This document shows positions 30,766 through 38,535 of a stretch of DNA of 64,000 nt, piece by piece (the stretch's first letter is position 1; every line of letters begins with the position of its first letter). The stretch is from Pseudokineococcus lusitanus (GTDB taxonomy: Bacteria; Actinomycetota; Actinomycetes; Actinomycetales; Quadrisphaeraceae). The notes below the pieces were generated by a model. That model was not told the DNA's origin and did no database searches. It worked only from the letters and a program-made list of their open reading frames with translations. Position numbers and translations under genes: made by a program. The DNA is taken from contig NZ_RJKN01000004.1 of NCBI RefSeq assembly GCF_003751265.1, positions 62,001 to 126,000 of the forward strand, written 5' to 3'.

Positions 30766-31899
30766 TCACAGCAGGTCGGCGCGCCCCTTGGCCCGCAGCG
30801 CCTCGACGACCTGCTTGACCTCCTGCGCGCGCGAGCGCGTCGTGACGAGGACGGCGTCGTCGGTGTCGACGACGACGACGTCGTCGAGGCCGATGACGGC
30901 GACCGTGCGGTTGCCGCGCGGCACGACGACGCCGGTGCTGTCCTGGGTGACGACGTGCTCGAGGTCGCCGATGACGCGGACGGCGGAGCCGGTGCCGAGG
31001 TCGGGGACGAGGGAGGCGAGGGCGTCCCAGTCGCCGACGTCGTCCCACGAGAAGCGCCCGCGGACGACGGCGACGCCGCCCGCCGCGGCCACCGGCTCGG
31101 CGATGGCGTGGTCGATGGCGATCTTCGTGAGCGTGGGCCACACGCGCTCGACGACGTCGGCGGCCTTGTGCGCCGGGAGGTCCTCGTGCGCCTCGGCGAG
31201 CTCGAGGAGCCCGGCGTGCAGCTGCGGGAGCTGCGCCTCGAGGTGGCCGAGGAGGACGTCGGCCCGGCTGACGAACATGCCGGCGTTCCAGCGGTAGTCG
31301 CCGGTGGCGAGGTACTGCTGCGCCGTGGCCGAGTCGGGCTTCTCGGTGAAGCCGGTGGCGCGGAAGGCGTCCGGCGCGCCCTCGACGTCCATGGCGTCGC
31401 CGGTCCGGATGTAGCCGAAGCCCGTCGACGGCGACGTCGGCTCGATCCCGATCGTCACGACGCTGCCCTGCTGCGCGACGGCGACGGCCTGGCGGACGGC
31501 ACCGCCGAAGGCGCGCGCGTCGGGGATGAGGTGGTCGGCGGCGAAGGAGCCGACGACGGCCTCCGGGTCGCGGCGGTGGACGACGGCGGCGGCGAGGCCG
31601 ATGGCGGCCATGGAGTCGCGCGGCGAGGGCTCGAGGAGCAGGTTGCCCCGCTCGAGCTGGGGCAGCTGGTCGCCGACGGCCCGGGCGTGCACCTCGCCCG
31701 TGACGAGCAGCAGCCGCTGCGGGGTGGCCAGCGGCACGAGGCGGTCCCACGTCGACTGGACCAGCGTGCGGCCGGAGGAGGTGAGGTCGTGGAGGAACTT
31801 GGGGGCGCCGGCCCGCGACAGCGGCCACAGCCGGGTGCCCGACCCGCCCGCCGGCACGACGGCCCAGAAGTGGTCCAGCGTCTCTCCCGAGGTCCTCAT
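30766..31899 (-). CDS. manC: Mannose-1-phosphate guanylyltransferase
   Basis: Makes GDP-mannose from GTP and mannose-1-phosphate, the donor for mannolipids and glycoproteins in actinobacteria. The 377-residue protein has the nucleotidyltransferase start VVPAGGSGTRLWPLSR, the Lys-containing APKFLHDL, SFAADHLIP with the metal-binding Asp, the FGYIRTG region and FTEKPD; it lacks the fused isomerase domain of larger ManC proteins. The ATG at 31899 has no clear ribosome site; GAACCT six bases before it is a weak -10 candidate for a leaderless start. No other mannose genes are nearby. Confidence 0.92.
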   Translation of the reverse strand: MRTSGETLDHFWAVVPAGGSGTRLWPLSRAGAPKFLHDLTSSGRTLVQSTWDRLVPLATPQRLLLVTGEVHARAVGDQLPQLERGNLLLEPSPRDSMAAIGLAAAVVHRRDPEAVVGSFAADHLIPDARAFGGAVRQAVAVAQQGSVVTIGIEPTSPSTGFGYIRTGDAMDVEGAPDAFRATGFTEKPDSATAQQYLATGDYRWNAGMFVSRADVLLGHLEAQLPQLHAGLLELAEAHEDLPAHKAADVVERVWPTLTKIAIDHAIAEPVAAAGGVAVVRGRFSWDDVGDWDALASLVPDLGTGSAVRVIGDLEHVVTQDSTGVVVPRGNRTVAVIGLDDVVVVDTDDAVLVTTRSRAQEVKQVVEALRAKGRADLL

Positions 31900-32091: not shown

Positions 32092-32535
32092 GTGGCGACG
32101 ACCACGCACAGCACCGGGACCTCAGGGTCCTCGGACTCCCGAGCGGTCGGCCGCCTCCGTGGCGCGGTGCCGCAGGGCACGCTCTACCGCGGCCGCGAGG
32201 GCATGTGGTCCTGGGTGGCCCACCGCATCACCGGCCTGCTGATCTTCGTCTTCCTCCTCGTGCACGTGCTGGACACCTCGCTCGTGCGGGTCTCCCCCGA
32301 GGCGTACAACGCGGTCATCGAGACCTACAAGAACCCGGTCGTCGGCCTCGGCGAGGCCGGCCTCGTGGGCGCCGTCCTCTTCCACGCCTTCAACGGCATC
32401 CGCGTGATGCTCGTCGACTTCTGGTCGCAGGGGCCCCGCTTCCACCGGCAGATGTTCTGGGCCGTCGGCGCGATCTGGGTCGTGCTCATGGTCCCGTTCC
32501 TCGTCCGGCACCTCGCCAACGTCTTCGGAGGCTGA
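32092..32535 (+). CDS. sdhC: Succinate dehydrogenase cytochrome b556 subunit
   Basis: Membrane anchor subunit C of complex II, binding haem b and quinone. The 147-residue protein has a hydrophilic start and then three helices; the SWVAHRITGLLIFVFLLVHVLD segment contains the Ser/Arg and haem-ligand His pattern of SdhC, and a second His lies in FHAFNGIRVML. The GTG at 32092 has a GAGGAG ribosome site. The stop is two bases before the sdhD start. It belongs with sdhD and sdhB, yet the flavoprotein gene is not between them. Confidence 0.94.
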   Translation: MATTTHSTGTSGSSDSRAVGRLRGAVPQGTLYRGREGMWSWVAHRITGLLIFVFLLVHVLDTSLVRVSPEAYNAVIETYKNPVVGLGEAGLVGAVLFHAFNGIRVMLVDFWSQGPRFHRQMFWAVGAIWVVLMVPFLVRHLANVFGG

Positions 32536-32537
32536 CC

Positions 32538-32999
32538 GTGACCGCTCCCCTCGTCGAGGCCCCCCGCTCGACCCCGTACCGCCGCTCCACGTCGCGCCGC
32601 TCGAACTACGAGATGTACAGCTGGCTCTTCATGCGGCTGTCCGGCGCCGTGCTCGTCGTCCTCGTCATCGGGCACCTCTTCGTCAACCTCATGGTCGGCG
32701 ACGGCATCAGCGCCCTCGACTTCGGCTTCGTCGCCGGCAAGTGGGCCAGCCCCTTCTGGCAGGTCTGGGACCTCGCGATGCTGTGGCTCGCGATGATCCA
32801 CGGCAGCAACGGCGTCCGGACGATCATCAACGACTACGCCGAGCGCGACATGACGCGGATCGTCCTCAAGACCTTCGTGGCCGTCGCCCTCGTCTTCACG
32901 ATCGTGCTCGGCACGCTCGTCATCTTCACCTTCGAGCCGTGCCCCGTGGGTGCCGACGGCACGCTGCTGCCGGCCGCCGCCGAGTTCTGCAGCGCCTGA
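32538..32999 (+). CDS. sdhD: Succinate dehydrogenase hydrophobic membrane anchor subunit
   Basis: Second membrane subunit of complex II, 153 residues. It shows three hydrophobic helices, with SWLFMRLSGAVLVVLVIGHL (His likely haem-related) and MIHGSNGVRTIINDY typical of actinobacterial SdhD. The GTG start follows the sdhC stop by two bases. After its stop only 76 bases separate it from sdhB, although sdhA (about 1.75 kb) normally occupies this place. Confidence 0.93.
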   Translation: MTAPLVEAPRSTPYRRSTSRRSNYEMYSWLFMRLSGAVLVVLVIGHLFVNLMVGDGISALDFGFVAGKWASPFWQVWDLAMLWLAMIHGSNGVRTIINDYAERDMTRIVLKTFVAVALVFTIVLGTLVIFTFEPCPVGADGTLLPAAAEFCSA

Positions 33000-33075
33000 C
33001 GCCGCCCTCGGGCGTCCGTCGCCCCCCGTCGCACCGCGATCCACCGCGCCCCGCGCGAGAGAAGAGCCGCACCCG

Positions 33076-33888
33076 ATGAGCACCACCGCAGACGCGCCCG
33101 CCGGCACCACCGAGCGGTCGACGCCCGAGGAGACCGCGGGCGGCAGCGAGCTCGGCGCCGTCGCGCGCTTCGACGTCACGCTGAAGATCCGCCGGTACGA
33201 CCCCGAGGGCGGCGAGGAGGGCGCGCAGCCCGAGGCGACGTGGCAGGAGTTCACCGTCACGGTCAACGGGACGGACCGCGTGCTCGACGCGCTGCACAAG
33301 ATCAAGTGGGAGCAGGACGGGTCGCTGACCTTCCGCCGCTCCTGCGCGCACGGCGTGTGCGGCTCGGACGCCATGCGCATCAACGGCGTCAACCGGCTCG
33401 CCTGCAAGGTGCTGGTCAAGGACGTCAACCCCGACAAGCCCATCCTCGTGGAGCCCATCAAGGGCCTCCCCGTGGAGAAGGACCTCGTCGTGGACATGGA
33501 GCCCTTCTTCCAGTCCTACCGCGAGGTCATGCCCTTCCTCATCACGTCCGGCCACGAGCCGACGCGCGAGCGCCTGCAGACGCAGGAGGAGCGCGCCCGC
33601 TTCGACGACACGACGAAGTGCATCCTCTGCGCCGCGTGCACGTCCTCGTGCCCGGTGTTCTGGACGGACGGCCAGTACTTCGGCCCGGCCGCCATCGTCA
33701 ACGCGCACCGCTTCATCTTCGACAGCCGTGACGAGGGCGCCGACGTCCGCCTCGAGGTCCTCAACGACCGCGAGGGCGTGTGGCGCTGCCGCACCACGTT
33801 CAACTGCTCGGAGGCCTGCCCCCGCGGCATCCAGGTCACCAAGGCCATCCACGAGGTCAAGCGGGCGCTGCTGACGCGCACCGTCTGA
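33076..33888 (+). CDS. sdhB: Succinate dehydrogenase iron-sulfur subunit
   Basis: Electron-transfer subunit of complex II. The 270-residue protein has the ferredoxin-type [2Fe-2S] site SCAHGVCGSDAMRINGVNRLAC, with Asp in the third ligand position as in other SdhB, then CILCAACTSSCPVFW and CRTTFNCSEACPRGI for the [4Fe-4S] and [3Fe-4S] clusters. The ATG at 33076 gives a short acidic N terminus and normal length; upstream frame extension runs into the sdhD end. A typical sdhCDAB operon would have sdhA just before it. The gene is intact. Confidence 0.97.
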   Translation: MSTTADAPAGTTERSTPEETAGGSELGAVARFDVTLKIRRYDPEGGEEGAQPEATWQEFTVTVNGTDRVLDALHKIKWEQDGSLTFRRSCAHGVCGSDAMRINGVNRLACKVLVKDVNPDKPILVEPIKGLPVEKDLVVDMEPFFQSYREVMPFLITSGHEPTRERLQTQEERARFDDTTKCILCAACTSSCPVFWTDGQYFGPAAIVNAHRFIFDSRDEGADVRLEVLNDREGVWRCRTTFNCSEACPRGIQVTKAIHEVKRALLTRTV

Positions 33889-33988: not shown

Positions 33989-35158
33989 TCAGCGGCGGCC
34001 GACGCCGCGGACCGCCTCCCCCACGGCGCGGACGGCGCCGTTGCCGAGCGCGAGGAGCCCTGCGCCGACGACGCCGAGCACCGCGCCGGCGGCCAGCGTG
34101 GTGCGGTCCGTCGTCCGCTGGTCGAAGGTGACAGCCGTGCGGGGACGCGGCCCGGCGGGGACGTCGAGGTCCTCGCGCACGGCCGTGCCCATGACCGTCG
34201 CGCCGGGGCGGACGAGGACGTGGCTGCCGGCGTCGTCCGCGGCCGTGGCGCCCCAGGCGGCGGCGACGAGGGTGATCCGCGACAGCAGGCCCAGCCAGAC
34301 GAGCACGGCGCCCAGCGTGGCGCTCGCGGCGACGACGGGGTTGCCGCCGCCGACGAAGCGCAGCAGCGCCCCGCCGACGGTCGTCACGAGCGCCAGCGCG
34401 ACGCCACCGACGACGGCGCCCTGGCGCAGGTCCCGCAGCGGCGCCGGGACGTCGGCGAGGACGCGGAAGAGGAGCAGGAAGACGCCGGTGTAGACGGTGG
34501 CGGCGATGCCGAAGCCGACCACCGCGAGGAGGAAGGCCGTGAGGCGCGAGGGGTCGACGCCGATGAGCGCGAGCAATGGGCCGCTGGCCAGGCCGAGCAG
34601 CGCGGCCGCGGCCCCGGCCACGAGCACGGCCAGGCCCAGCGTCACGAGGACGAGCAGGTCCTTGAGCTTCTTGCCGACGACGGGCCGGCGGTCCGGCTCC
34701 TCGGTGAAGACCGCGCGGATGCCCTCGCGGAGCGCGTCGAGCCAACCGAGGCCGGCGACCAGCGCGACGACGAAGGCGACGACGCCGGTGACCGACAGGA
34801 CGTCGGAGCGCAGCAGGTCGTCGGGGTCGAGCAGTCCCGTGGTGCCGTTCACCGTGAGGAGCCCGGGCACGGTCTCGTTGAGCTGCTCGTAGACCCGCGC
34901 CTGCAGGTCCGGCCGCGACCCGAAGACGAGGCCCAGCACCGACACCGCCACGACGAGGATCGACGCGAGGGAGAAGAGCCCCACGAAGGCGATGCCGCCC
35001 GCGAGGACGTTGCCGCGGTGGCCGCTGAAGTGCAGGTACGCCCGCACGGGGCGCAGGGCCGTGAGGCGGGCGACGAGCCCGGGGGCGGCCTGGGCCTCGT
35101 CCTCGGCGGGAGGGGCCGGGGTGACGCCCGGCACGGGCCGCGTCGTCGGGGCGCTCAC
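33989..35158 (-). CDS. YihY/BrkB-family membrane protein
   Basis: Polytopic membrane protein of the YihY/BrkB family; the name ribonuclease BN is historical and not a function. The 389-residue protein has about six to seven helices, beginning with the family hallmark HFSGHRGNVLAGGIAFVGLFSLAS and then FGSRPDLQARVYEQLNETVPGL. The C-terminal part contains VLVWLGLLSRITLVAAAWGA. The GTG start overlaps the ligase-like gene stop (GTGA), forming the end of a trpS-ligT-yihY unit, an arrangement commonly seen around trpS in actinobacteria. Confidence 0.92.
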   Translation of the reverse strand: MSAPTTRPVPGVTPAPPAEDEAQAAPGLVARLTALRPVRAYLHFSGHRGNVLAGGIAFVGLFSLASILVVAVSVLGLVFGSRPDLQARVYEQLNETVPGLLTVNGTTGLLDPDDLLRSDVLSVTGVVAFVVALVAGLGWLDALREGIRAVFTEEPDRRPVVGKKLKDLLVLVTLGLAVLVAGAAAALLGLASGPLLALIGVDPSRLTAFLLAVVGFGIAATVYTGVFLLLFRVLADVPAPLRDLRQGAVVGGVALALVTTVGGALLRFVGGGNPVVAASATLGAVLVWLGLLSRITLVAAAWGATAADDAGSHVLVRPGATVMGTAVREDLDVPAGPRPRTAVTFDQRTTDRTTLAAGAVLGVVGAGLLALGNGAVRAVGEAVRGVGRR

Positions 35159-35784
35159 GCCGCACCCCCGGCCGCGGCCGCGTCGCCGACGAGGCGGAAG
35201 CGGCGGTAGGGGCGCCAGACGCCGTCGTGGCCGTGCCGGTAGAGCCAGAACGCGTCCACGGCCAGGTCCACCTCGAAGTCGGAGAGCTCGGCGAGCGCGC
35301 GGTCCATCGCGGCGTCGGGGACGTGGTGCGCCACCGTGACGTGCGGGTGGTAGTCGAAGGCGAGCTCGCGCTCGAGCGGCCCGCGGCGGACCGCGCGCTC
35401 GAGGGCGCCGCACTCGGCGGCCCCCTCGGCGAGGGCGACGAAGACGACGGGCGACACGGGGCGGAAGGTCCCGGTGCCGCGCAGGCTCAGCGTGAAGGGC
35501 CCGGTGGCCGCGGCGGCCCGCTGGAGGTGCTCGAGCACCTCGTCGACCCGTCCCGACGGCACCGTCGTCGGCGGCAGGAGCGTCACGTGCGGCGGGACGG
35601 CGTCCGCGAGCGGGTCCCCGAAGGCACGGCGGTGCTCGCGGAGCCGGGTGGCGTGCGGCTCGGGCACGGCGACGGCGACGCCCACGGTGACCTCGTGGTC
35701 GGCGAGCGGCCGGAGGTCGATGCCCATCGTCGCGGGGGCCGGCTCGACCGGTCGGCCGCCCGGTGCGGGCGCTCCGCCGCTCAC
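35155..35784 (-). CDS. 2'-5' RNA ligase family protein (LigT-like)
   Basis: Two-histidine phosphoesterase of the 2H superfamily; family members ligate RNA 2'-5' or hydrolyse cyclic phosphodiesters, and the physiological role is unknown. Both catalytic motifs are visible, PPHVTLLPP and DYHPHVTVAHHV, in the standard spacing. The GTG at 35784 lies seven bases after the trpS stop and was chosen for coupling. The ATG at 35727 (190 residues) is a good alternative because the first 19 residues are Pro/Ala/Gly-rich and no ribosome site is obvious at either. Confidence 0.9.
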   Translation of the reverse strand: MSGGAPAPGGRPVEPAPATMGIDLRPLADHEVTVGVAVAVPEPHATRLREHRRAFGDPLADAVPPHVTLLPPTTVPSGRVDEVLEHLQRAAAATGPFTLSLRGTGTFRPVSPVVFVALAEGAAECGALERAVRRGPLERELAFDYHPHVTVAHHVPDAAMDRALAELSDFEVDLAVDAFWLYRHGHDGVWRPYRRFRLVGDAAAAGGAA

Positions 35785-35791
35785 CGCCGCG

Positions 35792-38535
<2,744 letters not shown>

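Follow-up and report, generated by a model that had tools for sequence, protein, structure and literature searches.

Relocation of sdhA from the succinate dehydrogenase operon to a site beside a LysR-type regulator gene in Pseudokineococcus

The window, a stretch of 64,000 nucleotides from Pseudokineococcus lusitanus that corresponds to positions 62001-126000 of contig C4, contains three genes for complex II on the forward strand. The sdhC gene (32092..32535, +), which has a GTG start, encodes the cytochrome b556 membrane subunit of succinate dehydrogenase and matches TIGR02970 with 93.7 bits (cut-off 52.3) as well as PF01127. The sdhD gene (32538..32999, +), also with a GTG start, encodes the membrane anchor subunit and matches PF01127 (Sdh_cyt) with 63.6 bits. 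Its score against TIGR02968 is 41.0 bits, just below the cut-off of 41.8, and the protein matches chain D of the solved succinate dehydrogenase 6LUM at 6.7e-42 (phmmer). According to the family scans and the match to 6LUM chain D, the locus thus encodes the two small membrane subunits, SdhC and SdhD, that are typical of a complex II of the sdhCDAB type. The sdhB gene (33076..33888, +) encodes the iron-sulfur subunit, which scores 345.7 bits against PRK05950/dhsB (cut-off 228) and also matches Fer2_3 and Fer4. The SdhB translation carries CILCAACTSSCP and CRTTFNCSEACP, and both the 2Fe-2S domain and the dicluster cysteines are present.

The sdhC and sdhD genes are two bases apart, and sdhD is separated from sdhB by 76 bases (33000..33075, +), in agreement with the spacing reported in a first-pass annotation of this DNA. 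The gap is the position of sdhA in all relatives outside the genus, and its only feature is GAGAGAAGAG, which resembles a ribosome-binding site and precedes sdhB. A very permissive tblastn search of SdhA against the window identified no SdhA remnant at the junction in any frame, as had been claimed from the sequence, and the best SdhA-derived match in the window (E = 0.03) is located 22 kb off the junction. The query set also included SdhB, SdhD, and SdhC, and the strong matches were those genes themselves. The gene order of the sdhCDAB type, with sdhA encoded between sdhD and sdhB, is hence not found in P. lusitanus.

A single complete sdhA gene is located outside the window, on another contig (C3:225492-227258), as the first-pass annotation had anticipated when it proposed that the gene should be elsewhere in the genome. 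The encoded protein of 588 amino acids scores 913.5 bits against TIGR01816, for which the equivalog cut-off is 727.35, and its closest solved relative is the A chain of 6LUM, which carries the annotation succinate dehydrogenase subunit A. The motifs RSHTGAAQGG, FHPTG, RDIVARS, HYAMGG, and GSNRLG are all present and aligned with those of 1NEK and 6LUM, and SdhA retains an intact RSHT motif for FAD linkage as well as intact motifs of the substrate site. The genome search for SdhA that had been recommended retrieved this one protein, which carries the FAD-linking histidine motif. A search of the genome with FAD_binding_2 gave one full-length match (1.4e-113), while all others were weak and mostly short, and there is a single match to the SdhB 2Fe-2S domain in the whole genome. 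The flavoprotein gene of the type-B sdhCAB operons was not found in the P. lusitanus genome, which contains exactly one complex II gene set, split over two places. A simple deletion of sdhA, another explanation offered at first, is refuted because an intact, native-like copy of the gene exists. A chimeric SdhA, generated by recombination between paralogs, was considered and rejected, since each 50-residue stretch is far more identical to the SdhA of sister genera than to the type-B or solitary paralogs; the divergence of the paralogs would also argue against homologous recombination between them. We also observed that the FAD_binding_2 search of genome G000 gave no conspicuous match resembling L-aspartate oxidase (NadB), so that NAD synthesis there may use a route other than NadB.

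The comparison with relatives showed that sdhA is located apart from sdhCDB in all four Pseudokineococcus genomes, and that the sdhD-sdhB junction is also short and lacks sdhA in the other three species. Outside the genus, sdhA and sdhB are adjacent and on the same strand in 96/96 genomes that hold both genes, in a sample drawn from the family, the order, and the class. Among the named genomes (n=80), which may have species in common with the 96-genome sample, the two genes are adjacent in all 79 others, the sole exception being P. marinus. One of the four Pseudokineococcus genomes matches the record of P. marinus JCM 14547 without a difference across a contig of 6226 bases. Because sdhA and sdhB are neighbors in all 96 genomes outside the genus, a chance explanation of the missing gene is excluded. 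The split is genuine, and the assembly collapse that had been suspected, whereby sdhA would have been collapsed or misplaced in a draft genome of 19 contigs, can practically be dismissed, as four separate assemblies agree, both loci are located deep inside long contigs in three of them (G000, G002, and G003), sdhA has different and conserved neighbors, and the short sdhD-sdhB junction is found in 4/4. It is also very improbable that complex II has been truly lost, or that a second complete sdh/frd set is encoded elsewhere, as had been thought possible. P. lusitanus has a single intact SdhA and a single SdhB, both of which are conserved in all four genomes, and no type-B sdhA, as judged from an assembly that is 98% complete.

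The genes that surround sdhCDB indicate which part of the operon has moved. The upstream neighbors of the intact sdhCDAB operon in the sister genera are those seen in the window, an amidohydrolase gene and a manC-like gene (mannose-1-phosphate guanylyltransferase-like, 30766..31899, -, named from its sequence without a family scan). Downstream of sdhB, the window contains a YihY/inner-membrane-like gene (33989..35413, -) and a trpS-like gene (35792..36907, -), both named from sequence, and most genomes of the sister genera have these two genes after sdhB as well. As sdhCDB has the same surroundings as the intact operon of the sister genera, it remains at the ancestral site, and the gene that moved is sdhA. 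The new site of sdhA is the same across the genus, between ilvB-ilvC-ASCH and LysR-leuB-ilvE, and in the relatives ilvC and leuB are located near each other without sdhA. In two of the four genomes, G001 (L071) and G002 (L072:6982-8163), a gene for a zinc-type alcohol dehydrogenase separates ASCH from sdhA, and the new site is therefore still changing. In another genome of the same order (G013), a further SdhA-like open reading frame (35%) was observed at L086:14922-16385, about 4 kb from an intact sdh operon.

The SdhA protein resembles its sister-genus homologs over the whole length. In the phylogenies inferred from SdhA and from SdhC+D+B, the genus was monophyletic and its internal branching order agreed, and the best SdhA tree joined the genus to its own family, a join that is weak (support 55/48). 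These data are best explained by one relocation of sdhA that preceded the diversification of the genus and was then inherited vertically. We consider it quite improbable that a lone sdhA, perhaps together with the LysR gene, was instead acquired from another actinobacterium and the native sdhA deleted. Such a replacement could account for SdhA being about as similar to its counterparts in certain other families of the order as to those in the sister genera (85%), and for the lack of a sister-genus ortholog of the LysR protein, whose best relatives are in other families. It is at odds with the position of the genus next to its own family in the best SdhA tree and with the inner branching shared with the SdhCDB tree, and in no sampled genome outside the genus is a classical sdhA located beside this LysR. 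A foreign origin of the LysR gene alone is possible.

In all four Pseudokineococcus species, the gene for the LysR-type protein is divergent from sdhA. The protein contains the domains PF00126 (HTH) and PF03466 (substrate-binding), is 87-92% identical within the genus, and has no ortholog in nine sister-genus genomes (best 40%). At the level of the order, the better LysR homologs outside the genus (41-47%) are divergently adjacent to a gene of the SdhA/FrdA family in 16/16 cases, the partner being a type-B sdhCAB operon in four and a lone SdhA-like flavoprotein in 12. At the level of the class, all 49 homologs checked (44-54%) are divergent from an SdhA-family gene or sdhCAB, of which 47 are linked to sdhCAB and two to an SdhA-like flavoprotein without a type-B sdhC. 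When both levels are taken together, the LysR homologs (41-54%) are divergent from an SdhA-family gene or operon, mostly type-B sdhCAB, in 65/65 cases, compared with 0/8 for the more distant LysRs that served as controls. The LysR of Pseudokineococcus groups with the sdh-linked LysRs in the tree, where the separation from the control LysRs is weakly supported, and it stands beside a classical sdhA, not sdhCAB. Because its homologs are divergently adjacent to SdhA-family genes in the checked cases, the LysR beside sdhA belongs to an SdhA-tied lineage. It is unlikely that sdhA landed beside such a regulator by chance, and the landing site was probably not random. The LysR lineage that is divergent from type-B sdhCAB spans a wide range of actinobacterial families (L187-L190, L211-L259), and the same lineage is divergent from an SdhA/FrdA-like flavoprotein of 583-600 amino acids that is about 35% identical to SdhA (L191-L202, L249, L250). 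The solitary flavoproteins were below all curated cut-offs in the three that were scanned, and no SdhB-like neighbor was evident at the three loci inspected.

A candidate operator was identified in the regions between the divergent genes. The pattern ATAG-N7-CTAT, which was chosen after inspection of the sequences, is perfect (8/8) in 45/49 class-level regions, which are related and not independent, and is found there no more than 140 bp upstream from the start of the LysR gene. The sdh-linked lineage is not alone in having this motif, since a perfect copy also occurs at one control LysR, L205. The candidate sites in the four Pseudokineococcus species, ATAGGCGATTCCTCT, ATAGGCAGAGCCTTT, ATAGGCAGAGCCTCG, and ATAGGCACTCGCGAT, match at 7, 7, 6, and 7 of 8 positions, respectively. 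The ATAG half-site is kept in all four species, and the second half-site is degenerate and differs between them. Among random 110-nt pieces of the window, at least 6/8 was reached in 0.84% and 7/8 never (5000 draws). The site upstream of sdhC that most resembles the operator matches at 5/8, which is nothing notable. The centers of the four candidate sites are located at -63, -53, -53, and -63, as measured from a putative -10 box, TAC[CT]CT, two spacings that are roughly one turn of the helix apart. The usual position of the LysR recognition site is close to this placement, which is suggestive only.

The second half of the candidate operator being degenerate, and the LysR-sdhA intergenic region being only partly conserved, it could be argued that sdhA moved to a place where its neighbor is incidental, in which case sdhA would be expressed from a constitutive promoter and LysR would act only on its own gene or on genes far away. 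We find this unlikely, given that the lineage is divergently adjacent to SdhA-type genes in each of the 65 checked cases and that both the ATAG half-site and the pairing of LysR with sdhA are kept in 4/4 species. We instead favor, with a probability of roughly 0.75, that a single event in the Pseudokineococcus ancestor brought sdhA to a site beside the LysR gene, and that complex II is produced from two transcription units, with SdhA controlled by LysR. The relocation is evident from the gene positions, while the control by LysR, the operator, and the transcription start are predictions from sequence.

The ancestor would have had sdhCDAB together with another locus, either LysR-sdhCAB or LysR-flavoprotein. 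The native sdhA would have left sdhCDAB for the site between ilvC/ASCH and leuB/ilvE, either copied or moved to a position beside LysR, after which the old LysR partner and the original sdhA would have been lost. We only infer that a former sdhCAB-type locus was located beside LysR, because, outside the genus, none of the family genomes examined has an sdhCAB-type sdhA. The identity of the ancestral partner is also uncertain because the LysR-linked genes of the order include solitary flavoproteins besides sdhCAB. In the present genomes, sdhCDB would still be transcribed from the ancestral promoter and sdhA would be transcribed alone under the LysR protein, which is expected to switch the gene through a predicted operator resembling ATAG-N7-CTAT, some 53-63 bp ahead of the predicted transcription start of sdhA. 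The limiting unit would set the amount of complete complex II, with SdhA as the unit under metabolite-sensing control. There is an even chance that this was a case of promoter capture, in which the catalytic gene of sdhCDAB came under the LysR-controlled promoter of an sdhCAB enzyme that has since been lost, so that the sole complex II is controlled via its flavoprotein alone by a regulator that formerly belonged to the other enzyme. The location of sdhA next to LysR probably places this one subunit under separate control. The split provides a natural test of the importance of operon linkage for the assembly of complex II, and also of how regulators change targets.

No published description of the sdhA split or of a LysR linked to sdhCAB was found in a literature search covering mostly papers available without subscription, and nothing on point was found in the literature on Pseudokineococcus genomes. 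The actinobacterial sdhCAB-linked LysR seems to be conserved, apparently undescribed in the literature searched, and associated with a clear predicted operator. Compared with the actinobacterial sdhCDAB systems, such as the enzyme in PDB 6LUM, all four Pseudokineococcus subunits belong to the same family and the remaining genes are located at the ancestral operon site, but sdhA is outside the operon and encoded alone elsewhere. With the type-B sdhCAB systems (TIGR01811 flavoprotein and b558-like SdhC) that have a divergent LysR, Pseudokineococcus shares the LysR lineage, the divergent layout, and a similar operator site, but the gene that adjoins its LysR is a classical sdhA, and no type-B sdhA is left in the genome. 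The arrangement also resembles that of the solitary SdhA/FrdA-like flavoproteins with LysR in several families of the order, as LysR is likewise divergent from a lone flavoprotein gene. However, the solitary flavoproteins have an identity of only some 35% and fall short of the SdhA cut-offs, whereas the Pseudokineococcus gene encodes a true complex II SdhA. Some bacteria, for example cyanobacteria, have dispersed sdh genes, with sdhA and sdhB not adjacent. Unlike these, Pseudokineococcus represents a change in a single genus, in a sample where adjacency is otherwise universal, and both the landing site and the neighboring regulator have been identified. The enzyme is ordinary, and what is likely new is the arrangement, in which two genes that are adjacent everywhere else in the sample have become separated in a single genus and a regulator has probably been captured.
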